Below, piece after piece: positions 3,286-21,548 of a stretch of 64,000 bases of DNA. The position numbers were made by a program, and so were the translations under genes. The stretch lies in NCBI RefSeq assembly GCF_016863295.1, contig NZ_BOOP01000049.1, forward strand, positions 1-64,000. Direction: 5' to 3'. Source of the DNA: Planotetraspora phitsanulokensis. Its GTDB lineage: Bacteria; Actinomycetota; Actinomycetes; Streptosporangiales; Streptosporangiaceae. Every line of letters begins with the position of its first letter. Within the stretch, counting starts at the first letter, position 1. Under the pieces are notes generated by a model. That model ran no database searches and was not told the origin of the DNA. It worked only from the letters and a program-made list of their open reading frames with translations.

Positions 3286-3591
3286 TCAGATCTCGATCCG
3301 AACCTGGCGCCCATCGAAAGCGACATAGCCACTGAAGTCGCGGCCGACACGGGTCGCCGCCGACTCCTTGATGTCCGGATAGGACCAAGCCCCGTCCCTG
3401 AGCACGGTTCCGCCGACCACGACGTCGTGATACTGCGCCCTCCCCTTCCAGGGACAGGTGTAGGGAGTCGGGCTGTTGCGGAGCACACCGGCCACAACTG
3501 AGTCCGGCGGGAAGTAGGCATTCCCCTCTATCCTGACTACCGCCTCGTTCGCGGCCTCGGCCACGACGGTCTCCCCAACCACTGCCTTCAT
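3286..3591 (-). CDS. DUF427 domain protein
   Basis: A 101-residue protein matching the small DUF427 family, with the characteristic core NSPTPYTCPWKGRAQYHDV near residue 40 and the ending WSYPDIKESA, then a short strand that reads VAFDGRQVRIEI. Members are small cytoplasmic single-domain beta proteins of unknown reaction. The ATG at 3591 is preceded by GAGGGGAAAC, which sets the start; an upstream in-frame extension has no family match. It stands alone, about 300 bases from the redox operon on the same strand, and I see no direct functional link. Confidence 0.8.
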   Translation of the reverse strand: MKAVVGETVVAEAANEAVVRIEGNAYFPPDSVVAGVLRNSPTPYTCPWKGRAQYHDVVVGGTVLRDGAWSYPDIKESAATRVGRDFSGYVAFDGRQVRIEI

Positions 3592-3878
3592 TCCGTTTCC
3601 CCTCATCGATCCTTGGGCTGGCCACATTCGCCCTCGTGACTGGCCGAGTGAGCCCCAGGAACACCCAGTCTGCCCCGTCGATGGCCTCTCCAAGTCGAGA
3701 CCACCGGTTGAGGCGACGGACCGTAGCCAGGCGCTCGAGTTGGTGCAGTCAGAGCCCGCTTGCGCGTTCAGCTAGACGTTGGTTTCGGGAAGAGCTCTCC
3801 TTCTTACCCGTGTCTTGAGAACGCGCAGCCGGACGGATGAGGAGTGAGCTCATCGCGTTGGCCAGCCGGCGGTCGCGG
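3592..3878. other. Intergenic, no gene recognised
   Basis: Open frames on both strands here have no recognisable domain and poor start contexts. The stretch separates the DUF427 gene from the end of the redox operon. No clear terminator hairpin was found. Confidence 0.4.
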
Positions 3879-4199
3879 TTAGGCGGGACCTGGGGTGGGC
3901 GGAAACAACCACGAGCTGGAGCCCGAGATGTCGAGCCACGCGCCCTGTGGTGTCTGGGCCACTCGGGCGACCATCGCCTCACACTCGCGACAGCGCAGCA
4001 CAGTTCCCGGTCCGCCCAGGTAGGCCTGCAGCTGTCCGAATGCTTGTGTGGCGCCGCAGCTACCGCAGCGGACAGTGACGGTGGTCGGGTCGCTTGCGAG
4101 GATCCCGGCAAACTCGCCGGCAGCGGCGTTGCCGTCCAAGACCGCGCCTGACTCGGCTGCGCCGTCGGGCGCGGCCGAGGTCGAGAGATCCGAGGTCAT
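3879..4199 (-). CDS. DUF6510-type zinc-ribbon protein
   Basis: This 106-residue protein has two CxxC knuckles, VRCGSCGAT and LRCREC, about 23 residues apart, which should bind one zinc or iron. That arrangement matches the DUF6510 family, usually found beside flavin reductases and sulfite-oxidase-like enzymes in actinomycetes. Its ATG overlaps the reductase stop by four bases (ATGA), so translation is coupled and it is the last gene of a three-gene operon. The reaction is unknown. I infer an accessory or electron-transfer-linked role from the context alone. Confidence 0.75.
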   Translation of the reverse strand: MTSDLSTSAAPDGAAESGAVLDGNAAAGEFAGILASDPTTVTVRCGSCGATQAFGQLQAYLGGPGTVLRCRECEAMVARVAQTPQGAWLDISGSSSWLFPPTPGPA

Positions 4200-5017
4200 C
4201 GATCAACTCCTGTTGGTCCGAATCGTTCCGTGCGTATGCGATCGTCGGGGTATCCCGCCTCGCGGAGCAGGCCTGTGGCGTGGTCAACGAAGCCAGAGGA
4301 GCCGCACACGTAGACCCGGGCCGCCACAGGCTCCGGCCACGCGGACGGAGGTTGGATGTCCTCGACCGCGAGGTGTGAGGCGGGACGGGGGTGCCCGTCG
4401 GGGACCTTGCGCGTGTAGACGAGGCGCACTTCGGCGGACCCTGGCGCGGACAGATCGGCCGACATCTCTTCCAGTTCAGGCCCGTACATGAGGTCGCGAG
4501 GGCCGCGAAGCGAATACACGAGCATCGTCGGCGTCGAGTCCCCCGCTCGCTTCCGGGCTCTCAGCATGGTGACCAGCGGCACCACCCCTGATCCGCCGGC
4601 GATCAGGAGTACCGGGCCGTCCCCGATGGATGGGTCCCCCGGCTCCCAGACGAACCATCCACCGATGGGCCCGCGCACGTCGAGCGCGTCACCGATCTCC
4701 ATGATCTCCGCCAGGTACGGCGAGACCTCGCCGTGGGGTAGGAGGTCGACGGTGACCGCGACGCGGTTGGGCGTGGCAGGCTCAGCCAGCGAGTAGCTCC
4801 GTTGGGCCGAGTAGCCGTCCGCGGCTGTGAGACGTACGTCTACGTGCTGACCGGGCAGATGTCCGGTCCAGCCGGGGACGCATAGAGAAAGTGTCCGGGA
4901 ATGCCAGGACTGCGAGTGCAGACCGATGAGCGTTGCCTTGCGCCAGTGATTCCCTGCTGGCGGAGTGGCTTCTACGGAGCTGTCGGCCGGGCCCTCGGTC
5001 GTGTTCGTGTCAGTCAC
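4196..5017 (-). CDS. FAD/NAD(P)-binding oxidoreductase (ferredoxin reductase family)
   Basis: A 273-residue reductase of the ferredoxin-NADP reductase superfamily. The FAD-binding beta barrel carries RSYSLAEP near residue 76. The NAD(P)-binding half has LLIAGGSGVVPLVTML near residue 140, then YVCGSSGFV near 240. No 2Fe-2S domain is attached, so it would pass electrons to a separate partner. It starts at GTG 5017, overlaps the upstream molybdoenzyme gene by eight bases and the DUF6510 gene by four. The tight overlaps suggest it supplies electrons to, or accepts them from, the Mo enzyme. Partner and direction of flow are inferred. Confidence 0.85.
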   Translation of the reverse strand: MTDTNTTEGPADSSVEATPPAGNHWRKATLIGLHSQSWHSRTLSLCVPGWTGHLPGQHVDVRLTAADGYSAQRSYSLAEPATPNRVAVTVDLLPHGEVSPYLAEIMEIGDALDVRGPIGGWFVWEPGDPSIGDGPVLLIAGGSGVVPLVTMLRARKRAGDSTPTMLVYSLRGPRDLMYGPELEEMSADLSAPGSAEVRLVYTRKVPDGHPRPASHLAVEDIQPPSAWPEPVAARVYVCGSSGFVDHATGLLREAGYPDDRIRTERFGPTGVDR

Positions 5018-5606
5018 CGGCGTGCCGCTCCTCGCGCCACGGGTCCCCGTAATTGTGATAGCCGAAGCCTTCCCAGAAGCCCGGTTCGTCGAAGCGCTGC
5101 ATCGTGATGCCGTTCACCCACTTCGCGGACTTCCAGAAGTAGAGATGCGGCACCAGTAGCCTGGCCGGACCACCGTGCTCGACGTGAAGCGGCTCTCCCT
5201 CGTACTCGTACACGATCCAGGCCTTGCCCCCAACCAGGTCCTCCAACGGGAGGTTCGTGGTGTAGCCCCCGTACGAATGCACCATCGTGTATTCGTAGTT
5301 GGTCTCGATGTCCTCGAAGAAGGTGTCGAGCGCGACGCCCCGCCACTGGGTCCCGAGTTTCGTCCACCGGGTCACGCAGTGGATATCGACGTTGATCTCC
5401 TCGGACGGCAAGGCCATCATCTCGTCCCAACTCCACCGCCTCGGCTTGCCGCTCTCAGGCGTGATTGTGAAGCTCCATTCCTCCGTCGAGATCAGCTGCG
5501 TTGGCCCAGCCGTCAACACAGGGAATCCGTGGGTCAGATGCTGGCCGGGCGGCAGATCGACGGCACGCGGGTCGTGATGGCCGAAGAAGCCACGCGAGAT
5601 TGTCAC
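5010..5606 (-). CDS. Sulfite-oxidase-like molybdopterin oxidoreductase
   Basis: Encodes about 198 residues of a molybdopterin-binding (sulfite oxidase / YedY-like) domain. The segment VDIHCVTRWTKLGTQW contains the cysteine expected to ligate molybdenum. Downstream MVHSYGGYTTNLPLED and ARLLVPHLYFWKSAKW are typical of the short actinobacterial SO-like family. I place the start at GTG 5606, behind GGAAGAGAG, because homology begins there with TISRGFFG; a TTG at 5702 would add 32 residues that look unlike the family. I see no Tat signal, so it is probably cytoplasmic. It is first in an overlapping operon with the flavin reductase and DUF6510 genes. Substrate unknown; sulfite is only one possibility. 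Confidence 0.8.
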   Translation of the reverse strand: MTISRGFFGHHDPRAVDLPPGQHLTHGFPVLTAGPTQLISTEEWSFTITPESGKPRRWSWDEMMALPSEEINVDIHCVTRWTKLGTQWRGVALDTFFEDIETNYEYTMVHSYGGYTTNLPLEDLVGGKAWIVYEYEGEPLHVEHGGPARLLVPHLYFWKSAKWVNGITMQRFDEPGFWEGFGYHNYGDPWREERHAGD

Positions 5607-5826
5607 CCTGTGCTCTCTTCCAGACCCAACGGTCTCCAGTGGTGGGCGTCTCACGGTCGGGTCGATGGCGGCAGCGACCTTGCGGTGGACTATTTCGTCC
5701 AACGTAGGGTTCCGCTGTAACCGGTGTCAACGCGAACGCAGTCCGTCGCGCGCGCTGCAGTCGCAGTCCCTCGCCCCGATCAACCATTAGGCGGGGCCGT
5801 TGCGACCGTGTCGGATTGCGGAACTT

Positions 5827-5840
5827 GGACTATATAGACC
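5827..5840. promoter_or_regulatory. Palindromic operator, site 1 of 3
   Basis: GGACTATATAGACC is a near-perfect 14-base palindrome in the divergent region between the molybdoenzyme operon and the zinc-finger/sigma-like gene. Matching sites lie before the MmyB-type regulator (10329-10342) and the AhpD-like operon (10631-10644). Its position could affect both divergent promoters. Confidence 0.6.
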
Positions 5841-5935
5841 AGACTCCACGAGGTGGCCGAGAGAAGCGGGCCGTCGATCAACGCCCTGGTCGGCCCTGTC
5901 GTGGTGCGACCAGGCGAACCGAGAAGGTGACCTCC

Positions 5936-6799
5936 ATGGCTGATGGCAGATGTTCCGATGTGGTGCGATTCGGCGGCGACCTCGGACTGGCACCTGAACA
6001 CCTTCAGGATTCGTTGGCCGCCCATCTGGCTGACTGCCCGGCCTGCGCGTCGTATGTCTCGCAGATCGCCACGACCCGCGAGCTCCTTGGACGGCACTCT
6101 GGTCCCGGCGGCGTCCAGAACGACCTGGCCGACGACGCGATGCCGGTGGCAGGAGAGTCCCCGGCGACGGGCGTCGAGGCCTTGCGAAGTGCTCTCCTCA
6201 CGCGTGCCGAACTGCTTGACCCCGCAAACGCCGAGGACCTCGCCCAGCGATCGCTGGAAGTGGGTCTTGCTTTGCAACGCAGAGATTCCCGCCCACGAGG
6301 GATCGTCGAGCTGACCAAAATCATGCACACACTCAGTGATGCCCAAATGCGGCTGGACGGCCGTACAACGCCCGCCGTCGACGTCACCGCGGCTGCCCGA
6401 GCCCGAGCGGACTCACTCGAAGATCTCAACAGCGATGCCGATGAGCCCGAGCTCTTCTACCCAGATCTCTACCCAGGCGAAGACAGGATCGACGGGTGGG
6501 TCGATAGCCCGAACCAGTGGCGCGGCGGCGCACAGATCCTGGGCCCGGAGGAAGTCGACGAGACCGAAGAGGTATACGACCTGCTCGACAAGGCACTCGG
6601 CGAACTGCCCGAGCCACTCGGCGAGCTTCTCGCGCTCGTCGATCTACAGGGCTACGCTCTGGCCGGCTCAGCGCAGGCACTCGGACTCGACGAGCTCTCG
6701 GCAACAGCCGCCTTGGCACGCGCCCGGAACCACGTCCGTGGCCGTCTCGACGAGTACCTGCATGGTGCCGAGTCAACGGCGCAGGGTGTGCCCCGGTGA
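5936..6799 (+). CDS. Zinc-motif / ECF sigma-like fusion protein
   Basis: This 287-residue protein starts at ATG 5936 behind GAGAAGGTG. Near residue 28 it has AHLADCPAC, an H-x3-C-x2-C motif like that of zinc-binding anti-sigma factors. The rest resembles a diverged ECF sigma factor: DPANAEDLAQRSLEVGL recalls region 2, a long acidic linker follows, and the last 65 residues (ALGELPEPLGELLALVDLQ, then LARARNHVRGRL) read as region 4. Having both pieces in one chain is unusual; it could be a self-inhibited redox-sensing sigma factor or a sigma-derived regulator. It is divergent from the redox operon across the 5827 palindrome. Function is inferred from domains only. Confidence 0.55.
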   Translation: MADGRCSDVVRFGGDLGLAPEHLQDSLAAHLADCPACASYVSQIATTRELLGRHSGPGGVQNDLADDAMPVAGESPATGVEALRSALLTRAELLDPANAEDLAQRSLEVGLALQRRDSRPRGIVELTKIMHTLSDAQMRLDGRTTPAVDVTAAARARADSLEDLNSDADEPELFYPDLYPGEDRIDGWVDSPNQWRGGAQILGPEEVDETEEVYDLLDKALGELPEPLGELLALVDLQGYALAGSAQALGLDELSATAALARARNHVRGRLDEYLHGAESTAQGVPR

Positions 6800-6935
6800 G
6801 CCAAGAGAGCCCATCTGGCGGCGACGCCGGCGGCAGCGCCCTCCCCCGTCAGAAGCGCAGCCACACGCACCGGGCCTTGCTCTCCAGATGCAGATCGTCT
6901 GAGCGAGCAGAGCACCATCCGACCCGAGGAGGAAC

Positions 6936-7523
6936 ATGTCGGGAACAGCATCCGACCTTGAGCGTATTCGCTCCGAGATCACCGCGGATCCCGACAATGC
7001 CTGGGCTGCAGCGGCGAACTACCAGCCGATATACGTTGCCGGCGCCGCGGCACGCATAGCGATTGTGGGACAGGCGCCCGGACGCAAGGCACAGGAGTCG
7101 GGCATCCCGTGGAACGACGCAAGTGGAGCCCGTCTCATCGGCTGGCTCGGAGTCGACGAGAGAACGTTCCGCGACCCATCACGCTTCGCTCTCCTGCCGA
7201 TGGACTTCTACTACCCCGGCAAGGGGCCACACGGTGACCTTCCTCCCCGCCAAGACTTCGCCCCCCGATGGCACCCGCGGATCCTCCAGGCGATGCCCCA
7301 CATTCAGCTGACACTGCTCGTCGGCAGCTATGCGCAACAGCACTACCTAGGCACTCGCGAGTCGCTCACGGCGACAGTTCGACGGTTCGCGGACTATCTC
7401 CCGGCAGTCCTGCCGCTAGTGCATCCGTCCCCGCTCAACTTTCGATGGCTCGCGAAGAACCCCTGGTATGAGGCAGAGGTCCTCCCCCAGCTACGTCAGT
7501 GCGTGCGAGCGGCCCTGGCGTAA
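6936..7523 (+). CDS. Uracil-DNA glycosylase family protein
   Basis: A 195-residue member of the uracil-DNA-glycosylase superfamily, which removes deaminated bases from DNA. The motif IVGQAPGRKAQESGIPW near residue 45 matches motif 1 (GQDPY-like) and VHPSPLNFRW near residue 162 matches the motif 2 His-Pro-Ser loop. A family-typical YYPGKG and LLVGSYAQQHYLG lie between. It lacks the four iron-sulfur cysteines of families 4 and 5. The ATG at 6936 follows GAGGAAC. It sits 137 bases after the sigma-like gene on the same strand and may share its transcript. The exact subfamily and base specificity are uncertain. Confidence 0.8.
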   Translation: MSGTASDLERIRSEITADPDNAWAAAANYQPIYVAGAAARIAIVGQAPGRKAQESGIPWNDASGARLIGWLGVDERTFRDPSRFALLPMDFYYPGKGPHGDLPPRQDFAPRWHPRILQAMPHIQLTLLVGSYAQQHYLGTRESLTATVRRFADYLPAVLPLVHPSPLNFRWLAKNPWYEAEVLPQLRQCVRAALA

Positions 7524-7545
7524 CGGGCGACCCAAGACCGCGAGT

Positions 7546-7880
7546 TCAACCGGGCCGTCTCAGACCTGTGCGGTCGAGAGCCGCCGAATGCTCGGCGGTC
7601 TTCAGGTAGCCATGTGCGTGGCCGCGCTCGATGGCCTGGCGCAGCAGGTAGGTCGGCGTGCCGTAGGCGAGGCCCTGGGTGATCGCCGTGGCCGGGGTGA
7701 CGGTTGGGATCTCCTGCCACCATCCGATCTGGGCTGGTTCGAGGTCTTCGTAGTGGATGACATAGTCATCGCCGCCAGTGCGTCGGAACCGTCGCTGCTT
7801 GCCGACGGTGACGTGGATGCGGTTGGGGTTGACGTCGCTGATGCCGTAGGCGGCGGTGTGTCGTGGCCACCACCCGGGCC
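7546..7880 (-). pseudogene. AbiEi-type antitoxin C-terminal remnant
   Basis: The minus strand reads WPRHTAAYGISDVNPNRIHV, then YVIHYEDLEPAQIGWW and TYLLRQAIERGHAHGYLK, ending at a TGA at 7546. This is the C-terminal half of the AbiEi-like antitoxin/regulator of type IV toxin-antitoxin systems. The N-terminal winged helix is absent; sequence upstream changes frame and runs into the DUF417 gene. No AbiEii nucleotidyltransferase toxin is present. I infer a relic of an abortive-infection system. Confidence 0.6.
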
Positions 7881-7923
7881 AGGGCCGAGCGCGGTGGACC
7901 GGTACTCAGCGCCAGGCCCTGAG

Positions 7924-8388
7924 CTACCGGCACTCGGCGGCTTGCAGGGCGTCCGCGGCCGTCAGCAAGGAGGCTCCGAGGAGCACGACGTCCTTCACCA
8001 GGAACTGCCCTGCGAGGGACAGCTTCGGTTCCCCGCGTGTCTCTTGCCACGCCTCGGGTGTCGTAGCCAGGAAGCTGAGGGTGGTGGCGAACATGCCGGC
8101 GGCGGCGAGGCTGCCGAGGGCTGACGCTCTCGGCGCAATCGGCTTTGCTCCGATCAGCGAGCCCAGAACGATTTCAGTGACGCCGATCAACCTAGCGACC
8201 TTCTTCTCTCCCAATCTGGCGATAAGCCACGAGAGCGGGGGGCTTGAGGTTACGAGGGGACGAATATTTTCTACCTCGTAGTCTTCAAATTTTATTCGCC
8301 CGATCTCCAGAAGATTGACCACAAGTCCATACCGAACGGTCGAAATCCCCACATTATGCACTATTTTTCCGATGCGATGCATTTTCAT
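7924..8388 (-). CDS. DUF417 (YkgB-like) membrane protein
   Basis: A 154-residue membrane protein of the DUF417/YkgB family, with family landmarks VRYGLVVNLLEIGRIKF, VRPLVTSSPPLSWL-like text near residue 50 and GQFLVKDVVLLGASLLTAADAL at the C-terminus (in part). Three or four hydrophobic helices are visible. The ATG at 8388 is chosen because AGGCAGGA precedes it; a longer frame from 8490 overlaps IS30 debris. The first 60 codons are strikingly AT-rich for this genome (AAAATAGTGCATAATG, AATAAAATTTGAAG), suggesting a recent foreign origin. YkgB-type proteins are linked to oxidant stress in other bacteria, but the activity is unknown. Confidence 0.75.
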   Translation of the reverse strand: MKMHRIGKIVHNVGISTVRYGLVVNLLEIGRIKFEDYEVENIRPLVTSSPPLSWLIARLGEKKVARLIGVTEIVLGSLIGAKPIAPRASALGSLAAAGMFATTLSFLATTPEAWQETRGEPKLSLAGQFLVKDVVLLGASLLTAADALQAAECR

Positions 8389-8499
8389 GAAATCCTGCCT
8401 AACGCGTCGGTTATATCGCTCAGTGTAGGACTCGAAACGCCTGCCAACGCTGAGCATCAGGTCATGCTTCACCATCGGTGTCGAGGCCACCGCCGATCA

Positions 8500-8780
8500 C
8501 GTCGCCGTCGCAGACGTCCCGATCGTGCGCAAGGGTGTTGCGGCGCAACTCCCGACTGATGGTCGAGGGCGATCGGCCGAGTCGTTCGGCTATCACGCGT
8601 ACTCCCAGACCTTGCGCCCGCAAGGTAGCGATTCTCTGCCGTTCCAGCAGCGATAAGAACCGGCTCGACCGGGCGGACTCAGCCGGCCGCGCCGGAGGGA
8701 GACCGCCGTTCTCCGCCCGCCACCGGTATCCGGTCTTCCAACGACACGACACGCCTCGACCGTCCCTACGCCTGACAGCA
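8500..8780 (-). pseudogene. IS30-family transposase N-terminal remnant
   Basis: The minus strand encodes KTGYRWRAENGGLPP, then FLSLLERQRIATLRAQGLGV and IAERLGRSPSTISRELRRN, which is the N-terminal helix-turn-helix of actinobacterial IS30 transposases. A frameshift lies near 8740 and homology stops near 8510, with no DDE catalytic domain. I could not find terminal inverted repeats. It is a dead fragment next to the AT-rich DUF417 gene. Confidence 0.7.
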
Positions 8781-8789
8781 CCAGCCGTC

Positions 8790-9245
8790 AGTAGTCCGAC
8801 TCCGCATCCAGCCTGCGCTTGAGCCCACGCCTCGCCATCAACACGTCCCTCATGATCAGGTGTGTTCCGACAAGAACGAGAACCCGAGCGACGACAAGGG
8901 GTCGGAATTCAGCCGTCGTTGACACCTCGGCGGTATCCGCGCAGCAACACCCGGGGGCAACTGATGGCTGAGCATGACCTCCAGTTCCCGCCCGGAGGTG
9001 GTCGATCTGCAGCGCACGTCTATGCAGCCGAAGCCCACCTGGCCGCGGTACTGAAGCCGAGGTACTGAAGAAGCAGCCGTCCGGGATGGACATCGCGAAC
9101 GGCAGGCTTGATCAGCGACGAGCAGTACCCCGACGAGCCGGCTCAGCTGCGCCGGCTCGCCAACGCGGTCCGGTATCCGCAACGAAGCAGCTCGTGCGGC
9201 TGGGGTTTGGCTAAGACCTGGCCGCATTGTGAGGTCAACTGAAGG
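8790..9245. other. Non-coding or decayed stretch, no recognisable gene
   Basis: Open frames on both strands have no domain I recognise and no convincing start. The words GTACTGAAG repeat near 9050 and 9062. It is flanked by IS30 and oxidoreductase relics, so it is probably decayed accessory DNA. Confidence 0.4.
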
Positions 9246-9432
9246 TCAGAGCGCGCGGAGGGCCGGCAGCAGTTCCTTTCCGACCAGGCGAAGAAGGCAT
9301 CCTGATGTTCGTGCCCGATCTGGACCAGCGCGATATGGGTGAAGCCGGCTTCCGCGTACGCCCGTACCGTCTCCACCACCGGCTCGATGTCTGGCCCGCA
9401 GGGCACCTTGGCCGCGATGTCCCCGCCTCCAG
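9246..9432 (-). pseudogene. F420-dependent LLM oxidoreductase C-terminal remnant
   Basis: The minus strand reads CGPDIEPVVETVRAYAEAGF, then THIALVQIGHEHQDAFF and, after a one-base frame change, KELLPALRAL and a stop at 9246. This matches the C-terminal end of F420-dependent luciferase-like oxidoreductases. About 60 residues survive, and the catalytic barrel is missing because the XRE regulator gene begins at 9439. Confidence 0.6.
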
Positions 9433-9438
9433 GATCGG

Positions 9439-10269
9439 TTAGAACCTCTTAGGCGGTGCTGATTGCGTTTGATCCAGCTTGGCCAGAGCCTCCTCGGACG
9501 GGCTGCCGGGCTCGGCCTGGTAGACGACGAGCTTTTGGCCAGGGGCACTGTCGATGGTGAGGGCTTCAAAGGAGGCGAACACGTCACCGACTTCGCGGTG
9601 ACGCATGCCAACCGACTCATGGGTCATGGCCCGGACATGATGGCGAGCCCACATCTGACGAAACTCTTCGCTTCCCCGCGACAACTCCTCGACCAGTTCA
9701 AGAAGCGAAGGATCGTCGCAGTCCAACCCCGCCGTGGCACGCAGGTGGGCCACCCTCGCACAAGCCTCCTTCTCCCAGTCCAGGTAGAAATCGCGTGCCG
9801 CAGGGTCGAGAAAGGTCAGGCGCATGATGTTGTCGCTGTATCGCAGCCCCGCGAAGAGAGCAGCCGCCCGCCGGTTCTTGGCCAGCACATCCAACCGATG
9901 GTTGATCACGTAGGCCGGCGCGTGATTCCAGTCTTCCAGGAGTCGAAGCATGCTAGGTGTGACCTGCCCACGTCGATCGACGGGCCTGCGCCTCGTCTCC
10001 CGGGCGTGGGCGAGTTTGTGTAGATGTTCGGTAGCCTCCGGGTCGAGCTGGAGGGCGTGGGCCAGGGCTTCGAGCACTTGATCTGACGGGTTGCGGTCTC
10101 TTCCCTGCTCCAGCCGGGTGTAGTAGTCGAGGCTGACGCCGGCCAGCATGGCCACCTCGTCGCGGCGTAACCCAGGCGTCCGGCGGCGGTCGCCAACGCC
10201 CGTCAGCCCCACCTGGTCAGGGGCCGTGACCTGGCGCCGAGCACGGAGGAATTCACCAATGCCCCCCAT
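9439..10269 (-). CDS. XRE-family regulator with MmyB-like ligand domain
   Basis: A 276-residue transcription factor. Residues 1-75 form an XRE helix-turn-helix (TPGLRRDEVAMLAGVSLDYY, then TRLEQGRDRNPSDQVLEALA). The rest is the MmyB-like PAS-related domain, with APAYVINHRLDVLAKN near residue 105 and a C-terminal KLVVYQAEPGSPSEE. The ATG at 10269 follows GGAG; an upstream in-frame extension is non-homologous. Such regulators usually control an adjacent oxidoreductase operon, and some are proposed to sense fatty acid or hydrophobic ligands. A GGACTATA palindrome lies 60 bases upstream, and a perfect copy precedes the divergent AhpD operon, so I infer autoregulation plus control of that operon. 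Confidence 0.85.
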   Translation of the reverse strand: MGGIGEFLRARRQVTAPDQVGLTGVGDRRRTPGLRRDEVAMLAGVSLDYYTRLEQGRDRNPSDQVLEALAHALQLDPEATEHLHKLAHARETRRRPVDRRGQVTPSMLRLLEDWNHAPAYVINHRLDVLAKNRRAAALFAGLRYSDNIMRLTFLDPAARDFYLDWEKEACARVAHLRATAGLDCDDPSLLELVEELSRGSEEFRQMWARHHVRAMTHESVGMRHREVGDVFASFEALTIDSAPGQKLVVYQAEPGSPSEEALAKLDQTQSAPPKRF

Positions 10270-10328
10270 AAGTAACTCCAAGTTCTTGACATCTCGACTT
10301 GACAAACTTGGACAAGCATAGATCAGGT

Positions 10329-10342
10329 GGACTATACCGTCC
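10329..10342. promoter_or_regulatory. Palindromic operator, site 2 of 3
   Basis: GGACTATACCGTCC shares both GGAC/GTCC arms with the sites at 5827 and 10631. It lies 60 bases upstream of the XRE regulator start, a normal distance for an autoregulatory site overlapping the promoter. Confidence 0.6.
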
Positions 10343-10630
10343 AATCTCGTAAGTGCTAGCGACTGCACGACCAGGCGCGAGCACGCTGCCCGGTGGCCGG
10401 TCGTCATCCCGGTTTCGGCGCATGGCGCTGGCGGACCGCACGGAATCTCCAGGGCTCTGTGGCCGCAGGTGGTGCCCGACCACGAGAGGGACGGCGGCCA
10501 CCCGAAGAGGAACTCCCAGATGGCCGTTCCTGAGCCACTCGGCATCCGGGGTGCACGCCAGGGATCCGGATGGCGTCGCCCCGTGCGACTGGGTCTTTCG
10601 TTACGACAAGTGGTTGTAACCGTAGATTTT

Positions 10631-10644
10631 GGACTATATAGTCC
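10631..10644. promoter_or_regulatory. Palindromic operator, site 3 of 3 (perfect)
   Basis: GGACTATATAGTCC is a perfect 14-base palindrome, about 210 bases before the AhpD-like gene and 360 bases from the divergent XRE gene. The intergenic region 10270-10855 holds sites 2 and 3 and no gene I recognise. A long leader before the AhpD-like gene is therefore likely. Confidence 0.65.
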
Positions 10645-10855
10645 TTCTTGCACGGTTCCCGGTGTGAAGAGATCCGGAACTCGGCGCGACCGAGTCACCC
10701 CTCGCAATGCAGGTCACCGGGCGCCCGGCGCAACCGACGGCACCGGCCAGGTTGCGGCCAGCGCAGGTAAGGCCTGCGGCGGAACTCTGAAGCACTAAGA
10801 GCCCGACTTGGGCTCGACGACGACTACTCACACCGCGACCGGAGGTCGATTCGCT

Positions 10856-11410
10856 GTGTCACGACTGAACGTTCCCGCCCCGGAGGATGTGCCCGCCGGC
10901 GCGCAGCGGGTGCTCGACAACGTTGGTACGCAGCTCGGCTTCGTCCCGAACATGTTCAAGACCATCGCGTCGAACCCGACCGTTCTCGAGGTCGTCACGA
11001 CTCTGCAAGGCACCTTGAGCCGAGTTCTGGACGCGAAGACCCGGCACAGCATCGCGCTGGCCGTGTCGCAAGCCAACGGCTGCAGTTACTGCCTGGCGAT
11101 GCACACCCACGTCGCGACCAAATTCAGCGGCATGTCAGGCGACGACATCGAGCTCGGCCGCGTCGGGAGCTCGGTCGATCCCAAGCGCGCCGCGGCCGCT
11201 CGTTTCGCGCAACGGGTGGTCGACAGCCGCGGGCAGGTCAGCGACGCCGAGCTCGCGGGTGTGCGAGGCGCCGGGTACACCGACCCGCAGATCCTGGCGA
11301 TCGTCGCGTTGGCAGTGCAATTCCTGCTCACCAACTTCATCAACAACGTCAACCAGACCGATCTCGACATCCCCGCCGTCGGCTCGGTCGATACGACCGT
11401 GGCCCAGTAA
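10856..11410 (+). CDS. Carboxymuconolactone decarboxylase / AhpD-like peroxidase-related protein
   Basis: A 184-residue AhpD-fold protein. The redox pair lies in GCSYCLAMHTHV near residue 78, the CxxC-x3-H pattern of alkylhydroperoxidase-like members of this family. The preceding LGFVPNMFKTIASNPTVLEV is typical of the peroxidase-related subfamily. I start it at GTG 10856 behind GGAGG; a TTG at 10808 lacks a ribosome-binding site. Proteins of this type reduce peroxides or act in aromatic ring metabolism. It leads an operon with SnoaL (broken), PEP-mutase-like and nitroreductase genes and follows a perfect palindromic operator, so a stress or detoxification role is the likeliest reading. Confidence 0.82.
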   Translation: MSRLNVPAPEDVPAGAQRVLDNVGTQLGFVPNMFKTIASNPTVLEVVTTLQGTLSRVLDAKTRHSIALAVSQANGCSYCLAMHTHVATKFSGMSGDDIELGRVGSSVDPKRAAAARFAQRVVDSRGQVSDAELAGVRGAGYTDPQILAIVALAVQFLLTNFINNVNQTDLDIPAVGSVDTTVAQ

Positions 11411-11876: not shown

Positions 11877-11957
11877 TCGCGGGAACCCTGGACGCGGTCC
11901 GCGCACCCAGCCGGCAAACCCCTCACCGACTCAATGATCATTCAGGAAAGGATCGAC

Positions 11958-12785
11958 ATGCCGGGCTCCGAACTCTATGAGAAATTCATGGCGCTGCACA
12001 CCCGCGACGGTGGCCTCGTCATGCCGAACGCCTGGGACGGCCTCTCGGCGTTGATGCTGGCCGATGCCGGCTTCGAGGCGATCGCGACATCGTCGGCGGC
12101 GCTCGCCGCCACGCTCGGCCGGTCCGACGGACGTCACGAAGTCACCCGCGACGAGCATCTCGAGCATGCGCGACTGCTCGGCCGACTCACCGGGCTGCCC
12201 GTCAACGGAGACTTCGAGGACGGTTACGGCGACACGCTTGAAGACGTCGCCGCGACCGTTGAGGCCGCCGTCGAGTCTGGCTTGGCCGGTATCGGGGTCG
12301 AGGACACCTCGGGCAATCCCGATCAACCGATCCGCGACTTCGACGAGGCAGTCAATCGCATACGTAGCGCCGTCGATGCGGCCAAGGGGCGCATCGTCGT
12401 CACCGGCCGCACCGACAACTTCATCCAGGGGCGGCCCGATCTCGACGACACCATCCGGCGTCTGACGGCCTTCGCTGAGGTCGGCGCGGATGTGCTCTAC
12501 GCCCCATTCCCACCCGACCTCGACGCCCTTGTCGCGATCGTCACCGCGGTCGCGCCGACACCGGTCAACGTCCTCGTGTCACCGTCGGACAAGGTGCTGA
12601 CCGTGGCCGAACTGCGGAAGGCCGGGGTCAAGCGCATCAGCTTGGGCCCATTGCTCTACACCCAAGCGATGGGCGCACTCGAACAAGCCACGAAGGCGCT
12701 CGTCGCGGGCGACCTCGCCTCGGCGACGACAGGTGGTATGAGCTTCGACCGCATCAACGAACTGCTCGCCCGCACCACGAACTAG
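11958..12785 (+). CDS. Isocitrate lyase / PEP mutase family protein
   Basis: A 275-residue (beta/alpha)8 enzyme of the isocitrate lyase/phosphoenolpyruvate mutase superfamily. PNAWDGLSALMLADAGFEAI near residue 21, the metal-binding loop NGDFEDGYGD near residue 86 and VTGRTDNFIQG near residue 148 are visible. The KKCGH catalytic loop of true isocitrate lyase is absent, so it is a small oxaloacetate-decarboxylase-like or C-C lyase member of unknown substrate. ATG 11958 is preferred over 11934 because GGAAAGGA lies just before it. It is third in the operon behind the 10631 palindrome and 60 bases before the nitroreductase gene. Confidence 0.82.
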   Translation: MPGSELYEKFMALHTRDGGLVMPNAWDGLSALMLADAGFEAIATSSAALAATLGRSDGRHEVTRDEHLEHARLLGRLTGLPVNGDFEDGYGDTLEDVAATVEAAVESGLAGIGVEDTSGNPDQPIRDFDEAVNRIRSAVDAAKGRIVVTGRTDNFIQGRPDLDDTIRRLTAFAEVGADVLYAPFPPDLDALVAIVTAVAPTPVNVLVSPSDKVLTVAELRKAGVKRISLGPLLYTQAMGALEQATKALVAGDLASATTGGMSFDRINELLARTTN

Positions 12786-12845: not shown

Positions 12846-13493
12846 ATGGATCTCGACAAGCTCATGAACAAGCACCTCACCAGGTACTTCGACGCCGGCA
12901 AGACCATCCCGGAGGAGACACTTCAGCAGCTGCTGAGGTTCCTGCGCTCGACGCCGTCGTCGACGAACGTACAGGCCAACCACTTCTACGTCCTCGCCAC
13001 GCCCGAAGGCAAGGAGCGGCTGGCGGCCAACCTGGGCGAACGATTCCAGGACAACAGCGAGAAGATCCTGAACGCCTCACACACCATTATCCTCACCACC
13101 CGGGCAGATCTACCCGAGAGCCACATCGAAGAGGTGTTCACCAAGGAGAGGGCCGACGGGCGGTTCCCCGACCAGGCAAAGCACGAGCTGTGGGAGTTCA
13201 TGACCCGCGACTTCCTCAACCTGCGCAACTACGGCTACAAGGACATGAACCACTGGATGGAAAAGCAGACCTACCTGGCAATGGGTCTGACCATGATGGC
13301 GGCTGCTGAGCTCGGCGTCGAAGCCATGCCGCTCGAAGGGTTCGACCCGACCAGTGTCGACAAGGCCTTCAAGATCCGCGAGACCGGCCACACCACGACA
13401 GTGCTGCTGGCCCTCGGCTACCCTGACCCCGCGAAGGTGTACGCCACCCCGATTTCGCGCTTCGAAGCCGACCAACTGTTCACCTTCGTCTAA
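12846..13493 (+). CDS. Oxygen-insensitive NAD(P)H nitroreductase (NfsB-like)
   Basis: A 215-residue flavin reductase of the nitroreductase family. RSTPSSTNVQANHFYVLATP near residue 34 binds FMN phosphate. NHWMEKQTYLAMGLTMMAAA and GVEAMPLEGFDP near residues 135-165, and LLALGYPDPAK near residue 188, match the NfsB branch, as does the length. The reaction is two-electron reduction of nitro groups or quinones with NAD(P)H. AAGAAGGCAGG precedes the ATG. It is the last gene of the AhpD-like operon; a peroxidase-like protein, a nitroreductase and an MmyB regulator together suggest defence against electrophiles. Confidence 0.85.
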   Translation: MDLDKLMNKHLTRYFDAGKTIPEETLQQLLRFLRSTPSSTNVQANHFYVLATPEGKERLAANLGERFQDNSEKILNASHTIILTTRADLPESHIEEVFTKERADGRFPDQAKHELWEFMTRDFLNLRNYGYKDMNHWMEKQTYLAMGLTMMAAAELGVEAMPLEGFDPTSVDKAFKIRETGHTTTVLLALGYPDPAKVYATPISRFEADQLFTFV

Positions 13494-13980
13494 ACATCCC
13501 GGCATCGGAACGACTGTGGCCGAAGTACAAGGACCGCGGACACCTCGGTCCTCGATGTCGGCCCACCCCGGACAACCAGCCCGGCGGCAGGCGCCGCCGG
13601 TCATCACGGCCCGCGCGATGTCGGTCGCGGGTCGCCGGTCGGCTCCCCAAATCGTTGGTGGCCAGGATGCCCCAGCGGCGTCCGCGGTCGCCCGACATCG
13701 GGTTCTCGACCTGCACTGTCCGATGCGAGAGGACTGTTTTCCCTCTCCCCGTAACACCAGCCGCGATGTCGAGTTGGCGTCCAGGTCTCGGGAAAGTGGG
13801 CCGCAGAGTGTGCCTGGAGGCCCCAGGGCGACCGCGTTCTCGGATGGTGAGACGCGGGGATTGGGTCACAGAGTGATCGCGGAGGGGGGTCGCGGCCCTT
13901 ACGTGCAGCAAGGCCCATAGAACGGGTGATTGTCGAAGATCATCTCGTTCGCTGGAGCCTCGTTGTCGTTGCAGTCTGTC
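13494..13980. other. Intergenic / decayed, no recognisable gene
   Basis: Long open frames exist on both strands because of GC content, but none has a recognisable domain or a good start. The stretch lies between the nitroreductase operon and insertion-sequence debris. Confidence 0.4.
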
Positions 13981-14200
13981 ATGCCCGCGGCCGTCTCGGC
14001 CATCGCCACTGTCCTGGCCGAGCAGGACGGCCCTGTGGCCCAGTGCCCGGAAGCCGATCTTCGGCAGGTGTGGGCGCAGATCACCGATCCGCGGGATCGG
14101 CGGGGCGGCGTCATTCGCTGGTGGTGATCCTGGCGCTGGTGCAGGCCGCGGTGGTGGCCGGTCCGACGAGCGCCGCGATCAGACGCTTCCGTCACTGTTG
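13981..14200 (+). mobile_element. ISAs1-family transposase N-terminal remnant
   Basis: Starting at ATG 13981 the sequence encodes an N-terminal ISAs1/H-repeat-type segment with LRQVWAQITDPRDRRGG. A frame change near 14105 is followed by HSLVVILALVQAAVVAGPTS, the hydrophobic segment that comes next in these transposases. Homology ends by about 14195 and the DDE core is absent. It abuts the first YjbR-like gene. No terminal repeats were recognised. Confidence 0.65.
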
Positions 14201-14303
14201 CCGGCGTGCGGGCGCCGCCGTTCGTGGCGGCCATGCGGGAGACGCCACCTTGGGCCTTGGCCGGGCGGTCAGGGCACTCGAATCGATAGAGGAGTTGATC
14301 ACC

Positions 14304-14687
14304 TTGGACGGACAGGAGCTGCAGAAGATCGCGGGCGACTGCACCGTGGAACTGCCCGGCGCCGACCTGGAGCGTCGTTTCGGCCCCGACTGGGAGCTCT
14401 ACAAGGTGCGCGGCAAGGTCTTCATGCTCATGACCGACATGCCAGGGCGCCCCGTCGTGATCCTGAAAGCTGATCCGGACGACGCCGCAGCCCTGCGTGA
14501 GCGGTACACAGACATTACCCCCGGCTATCACATGAACAAGAGGCACTGGATCACGGTGGAAGGCGGGGGCACCATCGACGAGAAGCTAGTGAAGGAGCTC
14601 GTGATCGACTCCTACCGTCTCGTGGTCGGCGGGCTTCCCAAGTCCGAGCAGCCCGTGGATCCGCGCACCTACGGCCGACGCGCCTGA
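14304..14687 (+). CDS. MmcQ/YjbR-family protein
   Basis: A 127-residue MmcQ/YjbR-like protein, the family with a CyaY-like fold and suggested DNA-binding. Landmarks are VELPGADLERRFGPDWELYK, GKVFMLMTDMPGRPVVILKA, then TDITPGYHMNKRHWITV. Homology starts at TTG 14304, preceded by GAGGAG, so I take that rather than upstream in-frame codons that belong to the ISAs1 remnant. Nine bases separate it from a second, truncated YjbR-like gene. The biological role of the family is not settled. Confidence 0.72.
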   Translation: MDGQELQKIAGDCTVELPGADLERRFGPDWELYKVRGKVFMLMTDMPGRPVVILKADPDDAAALRERYTDITPGYHMNKRHWITVEGGGTIDEKLVKELVIDSYRLVVGGLPKSEQPVDPRTYGRRA

Positions 14688-19610: not shown

Positions 19611-21548
19611 TCACCGGTCCTGTGGTGCGAGCGGGATCCAGACCCTCATCGCTCCGGCGGCCCTGTTGGCCCACAGGAAGTAGGGAATCGCCGGCATGGC
19701 GGTCGGCGGCGTCGCCGCCGGTGTGGCGGCGTCGAGCGGTAGGTACAGCTCGTCGTCGGCACTGGACTGCGCGCGTACCGGGGTCAGCAACATCACAGGC
19801 GCGATCGGGTGAGCGCCGGTGATGACGCCGATCGGCCCCCGGGCGTCCAGTTCCAGATCTTCAAGGACGATGCCGTCCAGTTCACCGGGCAGGTCGGCCT
19901 GTTCCAGGCAGTACACGAGCGGGCCACGGGTGAGTGCGACGCTGCCGCGTACCGCGTCGACGCGGTGATGGGCGGCGAGCAGTCGCGGCGGCATGGCCAG
20001 GACGAGTTCGACGCGGTCACCGGGCAGCCAGGTGCGGGTCAGCCCAAGGTAGCCCTGGTGACGGACGGCGGTGTCGACCGGTTCGCCGTTGACCGTCAGT
20101 TGGGCGTCGGCGCACCAGGCGGGCACACGCAGGGTCAGGGTCCACGGCGCCTCTGTGGTCTCGGTGACAGAGATGGTGACGGTCTCCTCCCACGGATAGG
20201 CGGTGGCGACCTCGATGGTGTGCCCACCGGCCGTCACCGTGCCCGGCGCGTACAGGTGCACCTGAAGGCCGCCGGGGTCGCCAGTGGCCGTGTAGGTGTG
20301 CAGGGATGCCATCAGCCTGGCGAGGTTGGGCGGGCAACATGCGCACGAGTACCAGGACAGCCGCCGGCCGGGGGCGTCCTCGTCGTCGCCGTCGTGGCCG
20401 GTGCGGAGCTGCAACGGGTTGGAATAGAAGAAGGCGGTGCCGTCGAGAGCCGTGCTGGCGGCGATCCCGTTGTAGAGGAGCCGCTCCATCTCGTCGGCGT
20501 AGCGGGACCGCCCGGTCGCCAGGAGCAGCCGCCATGCCCAGTGGAAACCGCCGATGGCGGCGCAGGTCTCGGCGTAGGCACGGTCGGGCGGTAGCTCGTA
20601 TGGGGCGCCGAATGCCTCGTCACGGTGGCGTGAGCCCTGCCCGCCGGTCAGGTAGGTCTTGGCGGCGATCGCCGACTCCCACAGCCGTTCGGCGGCGTTC
20701 AGCAGCGCGGAGTCACCGGTCTCGACGGCCACGTCCACGGCGCCGGCCGCCAGGTAGACCTGGCGCACGACGTGGCCCGTTACCTCGGTGGCGTCACGGA
20801 CAGGCTGGTGGTCCTGGTAGTAGTGGCGCTGCCGGAAGCGGCTGTCGGGGCCGAGCAGGCCGTGTCCGCGCAGGCCTACGAAGCGTGCGGCGAGATCGAG
20901 GTAGGGCCGGTGGCCGGTGACCCGGTAGAGCTCGACGAGCGCGGTCTCGACCTCGGGGTGCCCGTCGAGCGCGTCCACGCCGCCTGTGCCGAACCGCCGT
21001 ACCAGCAGATCGGCGAAGCGGCGCGCCACCGTGAGAATCTGCTGGACCGCCGGGGTGTCCGAGGCGCTGCGTGCGGCGGCTACGGCGGCCTGGATGAGGT
21101 GGCCGGCGGTGTACATCTCGTGACTGGACGGCAGTTCGGCCCACTGCCGGTCGCGATGGTCGACCTGGTAGTACGAATTCAGGTAGCCGTCGAAGTCTTG
21201 GGCCTTCTCCAGCAGTTGGGCGGTGTCGGCGACGAACGCCGAGGATCCGCCGGAGCGGGCGCGTTCCCACAGCGCCGCCTCGAGCGTCTTGTAGACGTCT
21301 GTGTCGGCGAACCACATGCCGGCGAAGTCACCTGCGAAGTCACCGGTGACACGGCGGAGGTTGTCGAGATTGCCCTGCGTGTGAAGCCGGCTGATGCAGT
21401 GCGGCAAGGTGGCATCGGCGTTGCGGATCTGCCAGCCGCCGAGCAGTCCGTCCGCGCTGAGGCGCACGGCGTGGGCGGGCAGCGGCCTGAGCGAGGAGAT
21501 CGCCTGGGAGGTGGGCAGGGTGGGACCGTACGAAACAGAGTGGGGCAT
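19611..21548 (-). CDS. GH127 beta-L-arabinofuranosidase-type enzyme
   Basis: A 645-residue GH127 (DUF1680) enzyme without a signal peptide, so cytoplasmic. Family members remove terminal beta-L-arabinofuranose using a zinc-bound cysteine nucleophile. The cysteine cluster YSCACCPPNLARL lies near residue 400, preceded by EMERLLYNGIAASTALDGTA and, earlier, YLTGGQGSRHRDEAFG. The N-terminal (alpha/alpha)6 barrel contains DTDVYKTLEAALW, and the C-terminal beta domains have APWTLTLRVPAWC. The ATG at 21548 follows AGGAA, 11 bases after the permease stop. It is the last gene of an SBP-permease-permease-GH127 operon, so it should process an imported arabinooligosaccharide. Confidence 0.85.
   Translation of the reverse strand: MPHSVSYGPTLPTSQAISSLRPLPAHAVRLSADGLLGGWQIRNADATLPHCISRLHTQGNLDNLRRVTGDFAGDFAGMWFADTDVYKTLEAALWERARSGGSSAFVADTAQLLEKAQDFDGYLNSYYQVDHRDRQWAELPSSHEMYTAGHLIQAAVAAARSASDTPAVQQILTVARRFADLLVRRFGTGGVDALDGHPEVETALVELYRVTGHRPYLDLAARFVGLRGHGLLGPDSRFRQRHYYQDHQPVRDATEVTGHVVRQVYLAAGAVDVAVETGDSALLNAAERLWESAIAAKTYLTGGQGSRHRDEAFGAPYELPPDRAYAETCAAIGGFHWAWRLLLATGRSRYADEMERLLYNGIAASTALDGTAFFYSNPLQLRTGHDGDDEDAPGRRLSWYSCACCPPNLARLMASLHTYTATGDPGGLQVHLYAPGTVTAGGHTIEVATAYPWEETVTISVTETTEAPWTLTLRVPAWCADAQLTVNGEPVDTAVRHQGYLGLTRTWLPGDRVELVLAMPPRLLAAHHRVDAVRGSVALTRGPLVYCLEQADLPGELDGIVLEDLELDARGPIGVITGAHPIAPVMLLTPVRAQSSADDELYLPLDAATPAATPPTAMPAIPYFLWANRAAGAMRVWIPLAPQDR

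Follow-up and report, generated by a model that had tools for sequence, protein, structure and literature searches.

The closest described system is that of AcuR in Rhodobacter sphaeroides, an acrylate-responsive TetR-family protein of the acuR-acuI-dddL operon and the dimethylsulfoniopropionate (DMSP) pathway; its operator TAATAGAC-n6-GTCTATTA (TAGAC-N6-GTCTA) overlaps the AcuR promoter and its mutation leads to constitutive expression (PMC3017554). Here we analyse a 64-kb stretch of Planotetraspora phitsanulokensis DNA (contig NZ_BOOP01000049.1, positions 1 to 64,000; hereafter the window), in which a 16-bp palindrome with the consensus TGGACTATATAGTCCA occurs four times (O1 to O4, Table 1). 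As TGGAC-N6-GTCCA it has the GAC/GTC half-sites and 6-bp gap of the AcuR operator, but its half-site is TGGAC and not TAGAC. With a probability of roughly 0.9, and judging from sequence comparison, we read the palindrome as the operator of a repressor that belongs to the TetR_C_13 (AcuR/YxaF-like) clade of the TetR family and would block redox promoters in trans.

NemR of Escherichia coli is a TetR protein that senses electrophiles and hypochlorous acid, and the LmrA/YxaF operator has a shorter spacing. The proposed regulator resembles both proteins. It has the TetR fold of NemR, whose structure 4yze it matches in both structural and profile comparisons, and is distant from it in sequence. PF21993 (named LmrA/YxaF) and the structure of Bacillus subtilis YxaF (1sgm) match the clade, but in our alignment YxaF has no cysteine at the position conserved in the clade. 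Five of six TetR proteins scanned (those of loci L049, L057, L058, L053 and L007) carry PF00440, PF16925 and PF21993 above cut-off; in the protein of L059 PF00440 is present and PF16925 falls below cut-off. A structure model of a clade TetR (predicted local distance difference test score 90.8) has 3bru and 3qbm as its best PDB matches, with 3dpj, 4l62 and NemR 4yze lower. The NCBIfam model of AcuR matches the clade nearly end to end and is the second NCBIfam match of the L049 TetR (1.2e-18), yet scores of 67.1 (L049) and 51.6 bits (L057) do not reach its equivalog cut-off of 247 bits: the clade is not AcuR proper.

Literature searches of open-licence papers gave, among the matches listed, no operator description for the clade or for the palindrome. 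An exact-string search of the same kind matched 62 papers, none of which contains GGACTATATAGTCC, the core of O4; among the matches listed only GGACTATAC was present, in a set that includes a paper on the Streptomyces regulator DasR (PMC4398421). The operators of CssR (TAA(G)TG-N13; PMC8176726) and SCO7222 (TGGAACG-N-CGTTCCA; PMC3511530) are different ones, that of EilR (GTTGGACAC-GTGTCCAAC; PMC6127294) has a TTGGAC half in common with a different spacing, and MsrR (PMC7532634) is another type of XRE protein.

Four copies of the palindrome lie at promoter candidates in the window

At up to three mismatches the palindrome occurs four times in the window, against 0.63 copies expected by chance, and none of 100 dinucleotide shuffles of the window reached four matches. 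The palindrome is thus a genuine, non-chance signal. A sequence-only reading of the window had proposed three sites, at 5827, 10329 and 10631; all three are present and correspond to O2, O3 and O4.

Four predicted transcription units carry the sites: molybdoenzyme-FAD reductase-DUF427 (O1); sigma-like-UDG, where UDG stands for a uracil-DNA glycosylase family protein (O2); mmyB, encoding an MmyB-type XRE regulator (O3); and CMD-PEP-mutase-nitroreductase-YjbR (O4). We refer to the molybdoenzyme/sigma/UDG genes as locus A and to the mmyB/CMD/PEP-mutase/nitroreductase/YjbR genes as locus B. The promoter candidates at the four sites are matches to consensus hexamers only, with -10-like hexamers in or beside the sites. 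O2 includes the -10-like hexamer TATAGA, reading toward the sigma-like gene, and O3 overlaps the -35 or the -10 of mmyB promoter candidates; those at O1 and O4 are given in Table 1. Such overlaps fit simple repression, as reported for AcuR.

The sites are conserved in comparisons that include four sister Planotetraspora genomes (G001 to G004). O2 is invariant in six of six genomes, and GGAC-N6-GTCC is kept at O1 in six of six, G003 included, and at O3 in all four Planotetraspora rows aligned. The stretch TTTTGGACTATATAGTCC, made up of O4 and its flank, is identical in the five genomes aligned, Microbispora oryzae among them. In G001 and G003 loci A and B lie on different contigs, each retaining its own site.

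The palindrome accompanies a TetR clade in other genera

An alignment of six clade TetRs was scanned against named genomes, and the best 80 of 347 relatives were taken as loci; they come from Nonomuraea, Herbidospora, Kribbella, Micromonospora, Amycolatopsis, Streptomyces, Microbispora, Arthrobacter and others. Upstream distances were counted from the start of the tblastn match, which is not a proven start codon, and the 600-bp search interval runs to 60 bp inside. With 53 of the 80 TetR genes, the 600 bp upstream contain the degenerate palindrome TGGACTNNNNAGTCCA (at most two mismatches), against a mean of 1.14 and a maximum of 3 in 50 shuffles; with 40 genes it is present in the 300 bp upstream (shuffles: mean 0.64, maximum 5). 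In its strict form, TGGAC-N6-GTCCA, the palindrome occurs at 16 of the 80 loci (20 shuffles: mean 0.05, maximum 1). From 71 sites upstream of TetR genes (76 loci outside the genus) we derived a position weight matrix (PWM), which has a strong GGAC-N6-GTCC with a centre preferring A/T and agrees with the AcuR-type half-sites as T(A/G)GAC-N6-GTC(C/T)A.

The association also holds when the search starts from the site. Outside the genus, close matches (at most one mismatch) occur at 12 places in eight genomes of a family-level and a class-level set, and at 10 of the 12 a full-length clade TetR gene is no more than 3.1 kb away. The place in L221 stands beside a C-terminal TetR fragment, and that in L059 lies about 100 bp from a different TetR. 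An Rrf2/IscR-type regulator as the binder has one point in its favour, the GACT...AGTC outline, which we take to resemble IscR type 1 half-sites; the out-of-genus sites examined adjoin TetR genes, no search aimed at Rrf2 having been made, and we consider this assignment extremely improbable.

The gene orders in Microbispora link the TetR clade to the window's own operons. In Microbispora rosea (L189) an operator, a gene for a TetR-like partner protein that lacks the helix-turn-helix (HTH) domain, the TetR gene, a GNAT gene, two operators, DUF427, the FAD reductase, the molybdoenzyme, two operators and the sigma-like gene follow one another, and one operator of the pair before the sigma-like gene is identical to O2. 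The arrangement in M. bryophytorum (L205) is similar, except that the pair of operators in the middle is absent. In M. oryzae (L194) an operator and the HTH-less partner precede the TetR gene, which is followed by operator TGGACTATATAGTCCC and then by CMD, PEP-mutase, nitroreductase and YjbR. For each locus of the window there is thus a relative in which it immediately adjoins this TetR. The earlier proposal that a shared operator links the redox promoters of the window is supported, the same gene families standing behind the same operator in other genera. Elsewhere in Planotetraspora the palindrome likewise clusters around a TetR gene (G001:C40, G002:C40, G003:C46 and G004:C106, as genome and contig), with genes for an MDR reductase, GNAT, DUF4440/NTF2-like, MFS and sigma proteins.

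Evidence against the TetR assignment, and rival regulators

Several observations weigh against a TetR operator. No site at two or fewer mismatches lies within 600 bp upstream of 27 of the 80 TetR homologues. The PWM ranks O4, O2, O3 and O1 as the top four sites of the window, the next score being 16.2 at 19864 within a GH127 gene, but its training sites were picked beforehand with the same consensus, which makes the ranking supportive and only partly independent. A loose genome-wide count (9.17-Mb genome of the window strain, at most three mismatches) gives 13 palindromes against 17 for the reversed control, hence no excess. Counts of TGGACTNNNNAGTCCA at one mismatch or less in five genomes of the genus even show a deficit: 17 (window genome), 15, 9, 14 and 12 against 34, 34, 34, 23 and 32 for the control. 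Close matches to the 16-mer (at most one mismatch) behave differently, with two against none for the control in the window genome, both inside the window, and nine against none over the five Planotetraspora genomes. They occur in 9 of 150 genomes of the family set, where the control matches in 4, and in 7 of 296 genomes of the class set, where the control columns are 0; the two sets overlap by 26 genomes. The sequence-only reading had made its proposal depend on the palindrome being denser than random occurrence. This stands for close 16-mer matches, in which the excess over control lies, and seems to fail with the loose pattern, so that the outcome of the density check depends on the strictness of the pattern.

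Within Planotetraspora, close matches have MmyB as a neighbour more often than TetR: of nine such places, seven are near MmyB or a fragment of it and three near TetR or a remnant, and there is no TetR in the 6 kb around the operator near locus B. The window alone would consequently suggest MmyB as the regulator, and the earlier reading had indeed named the MmyB-type XRE protein as the binder and as the regulator of the redox operons around it. Palindromes of 14 bp with A/T centres are frequent binding sites of XRE dimers, and O4 lies about 370 bp upstream of mmyB, with O3 closer still (Table 1). The related MltR is expected to bind a palindrome (PMC3406030). MmyB and MltR belong to the family PF17765, of which the window encodes one member.

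We examined the promoters of 30 MmyB homologues out of 237 matches in the genus. Only two have the site within 600 bp upstream, namely the window gene and its G002 orthologue; the other 28 promoters are without the palindrome. The helix region of MmyB is near-constant across the 30 homologues, [VIL]SxDYYxRLEQGR with few exceptions. The compared 16-residue helix segment is identical only between the window gene and its orthologue, and the MmyB of L108, which has the helix stretch AGVSLDYYTRLEQGR in common with the window protein, is without the site. A search for a motif common to the 30 promoters found no widely shared palindrome, the best being a 4-bp half-site repeat in eight of 30; CAGGTCAA is present in 10 of 30. 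The MmyB paralogues close to regulon sites in L022 and L028 are not themselves preceded by one, and none of the 12 out-of-genus places has an MmyB gene nearby, with flanks of 1.3 to 5.7 kb fetched on the shorter side. Furthermore, O3 and O4 are retained in G001 and G003, where mmyB is a fragment (residues 1-38 and 48-139 matched, respectively). The main text of a survey of XRE palindromes contains no 'GGAC' (PMC12565409).

On this evidence from paralogues, adjacency and gene loss we reject MmyB as the binder, a role that we hold to be very unlikely. MmyB-type regulators form a large paralogous expansion in the five Planotetraspora genomes, with 54, 48, 54, 44 and 37 matches (E <= 1e-40). We read the nearness of MmyB inside the genus as a lineage-specific neighbourhood because of these 37 to 54 matches per genome, at which nearness to one says little and is easily misread. 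The mmyB gene is probably at most a regulated gene, either a target through O3 or a bystander.

No clade TetR gene was found in the window, so the regulator would have to act in trans on the window operons. Neither was the TetR orthologue (93-100% in G001 to G004) found in the window's draft assembly, where the best match is a 45% paralogue at C3:490892, and a DNA search of the assembly with 4.9 kb of the TetR cluster yielded nothing beyond short stretches on contig C70 and weaker matches in other places. Other genes of the cluster (MFS, DUF4440-like and GNAT) are on C70, a contig of 3.7 kb. Contig C3 carries the operator pair and the upstream partner gene and stops about 31 bp short of where the TetR alignment begins. 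An assembly gap is likely the reason for the missing tetR gene; its loss is possible. Two short collinear tblastn matches at 3643-3793 of the window (minus strand), considered as a TetR remnant, have E values of about 8 and are too weak to claim.

Had the cognate TetR been lost in this species, the window sites would be orphan operators on which the 45% paralogue or nothing acts. Such a loss is a variant of the TetR explanation and compatible with it. No TetR closer than this paralogue was found in the assembly, and the PWM gives the paralogue's two operators, TGGACGACATCGTCCA and TGGACGAAATCGTCCA, scores of 21.7 and 22.5. However, the end of C3 just short of where tetR should begin has the look of an assembly gap, and all four window sites are conserved; we regard orphan operators as unlikely.

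Proposed mechanism and regulon content

In the TetR reading, a TetR dimer bound to the palindrome would obstruct RNA polymerase at the promoters, as the overlap with -10- and -35-like hexamers suggests. An inducer, most likely an oxidant or a reactive electrophile, would release the TetR; the content of the regulon and one conserved cysteine point this way. That cysteine, at position 115, is present in 79 of 80 TetR homologues. Since three of five related TetRs aligned also have it, a thiol switch at Cys115 is only a hypothesis.

At 99 loci we counted the gene families that start within 400 bp of high-scoring sites. Clustered by single linkage and with eight pairs of loci being the same stretch fetched twice (for example, L057/L132 and L049/L200), both of which inflate the family counts, they are mainly TetR together with its HTH-less partners (58), MDR quinone-reductase-like proteins (40), GNAT (24 and 10), molybdoenzyme (15), MsrB-like (13), OsmC (13), CMD/AhpD (11), sigma (9), DUF4440 (8), MsrA (8) and UDG (6). 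For the MsrB label we relied on sequence and on a partial SelR match of an adjacent gene in L049. Intergenic position was scored for 353 of 357 high-scoring sites, an upper figure given that the crude gene caller misses genes, mmyB among them.

Because MsrA and MsrB recur together with OsmC, AhpD-like proteins and quinone and nitro reductases, the gene content suggests that the regulon repairs damage from oxidants or electrophiles. AcuI, which AcuR controls, is an MDR-type reductase. Assignment of the clade's MDR proteins as acrylyl-CoA reductases was considered and is weak; their best model is the PIG3-type quinone reductase, at 139.9 bits against a cut-off of 296.8.

Between the operator and tetR lies a gene of about 150 codons for an HTH-less TetR ligand domain (L003 1646-2086; L061 2127-2597; L064 1025-1498; L189 4516-4983; and others). 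In G001 and G004 this gene ends on the start of tetR, the stop and start codons overlapping as TGATG. Aligned to the TetR profile with hhalign, the partner scores a probability of 98 (E 1e-13, columns 75-202); its own fold search gave weak TetR matches only, the best with E 0.07.

A wider interpretation, which we put forward tentatively and consider doubtful, is that a thiol-sensing TetR governs a mobile actinobacterial oxidant-repair regulon (methionine sulfoxide reductases, molybdoenzyme, OsmC, AhpD-like protein, quinone reductase, UDG and sigma factor). The HTH-less ligand domain, product of the translationally coupled upstream gene, would pair with the TetR as a non-DNA-binding subunit and tune it. 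The window strain would then have scattered operons with no linked regulator, and an MmyB-type gene captured as a new target.

For this TetR clade, which is widespread, the analysis yields a predicted operator together with a list of genes. The targets that recur suggest the repair of oxidised methionine and the detoxification of electrophiles, and the coupled HTH-less partner may offer a simple system for hetero-dimer control of a TetR repressor.

Features of the window

Table 1. Operators, promoter candidates and target genes in the window (PWM scores in bits)
Feature	Positions	Strand	Remarks
DUF427 protein, probable last gene of O1 operon	3286..3591	-	PF04248; order same in L189 and L205
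FAD/NAD oxidoreductase	4196..5017	-	PF00970, PF00175
Sulfite-oxidase-fold molybdoenzyme, MsrP-like	5010..5702	-	PF00174, 1.8e-34
Operator O1, palindrome TGGACTATTTCGTCCA; core GGACTATTTCGTCC (5687-5700)	5686..5701	.	PWM 18.8, rank 4 in window; overlooked by the sequence-only reading
Promoter-like TTGACA-18-TACGTT, molybdoenzyme operon	5701..5730	-	consensus match; O1 abuts its -10
Operator O2, palindrome TGGACTATATAGACCA; core GGACTATATAGACC (5827-5840)	5826..5841	.	PWM 24.0
Sigma-70-like protein behind O2	5936..6799	+	weak NCBIfam sigma matches only, best 25.7 bits vs 190
Uracil-DNA glycosylase (UDG) family protein	6936..7523	+	PF03167
MmyB-type XRE regulator (mmyB)	9439..10275	-	PF17765, PF13560
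Operator O3, palindrome TGGACTATACCGTCCA; core GGACTATACCGTCC (10329-10342)	10328..10343	.	PWM 23.5; 53-68 bp upstream of mmyB start
Promoter-like TTGTAA-17-TATAGT	10614..10642	+	consensus match; O4 covers -10-like TATAGT; TGGTTGTAACC block kept in 5/5 aligned rows
Operator O4, palindrome TGGACTATATAGTCCT; core GGACTATATAGTCC (10631-10644)	10630..10645	.	PWM 29.8, top score in window
CMD/AhpD-like protein	10808..11410	+	PF02627; start probably GTG 10856; homologue downstream of TetR in L194
PEP-mutase/isocitrate-lyase family enzyme	11934..12785	+	PF13714
NfsB-like nitroreductase	12846..13493	+	PF00881; PRK11053 191 bits vs cut-off 227
YjbR-domain protein, probable end of O4 operon	13926..14687	+	PF04237; order same in L194

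The molybdoenzyme has MsrP as its best NCBIfam match, but at 38.1 it is far below the cut-off of 207. Its true start is probably near 5606, downstream of O1, as the gene calls of homologues begin at VTISRG. A Pfam scan of the sigma-like protein gave no match, and the UDG gene is possibly co-transcribed with the sigma-like gene.

In Nonomuraea maritima (L058 3690-3900) a TetR paralogue is divergent from CMD, nitroreductase, MDR and YjbR genes, with TGGGCT-N4-AGCCCA-like repeats instead of the palindrome: the layout is the same and the half-site changed. In G001 and G003, C-terminal TetR remnants (L022 8116-8292 and L025 3600-3758), corresponding to residues 152-208 and 152-204 of the L049 TetR, adjoin an MmyB paralogue in the vicinity of locus A. 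Between the two loci of the window lies a gene for a DUF417 protein (7924-8490), which has a 70% relative near locus A in G004.

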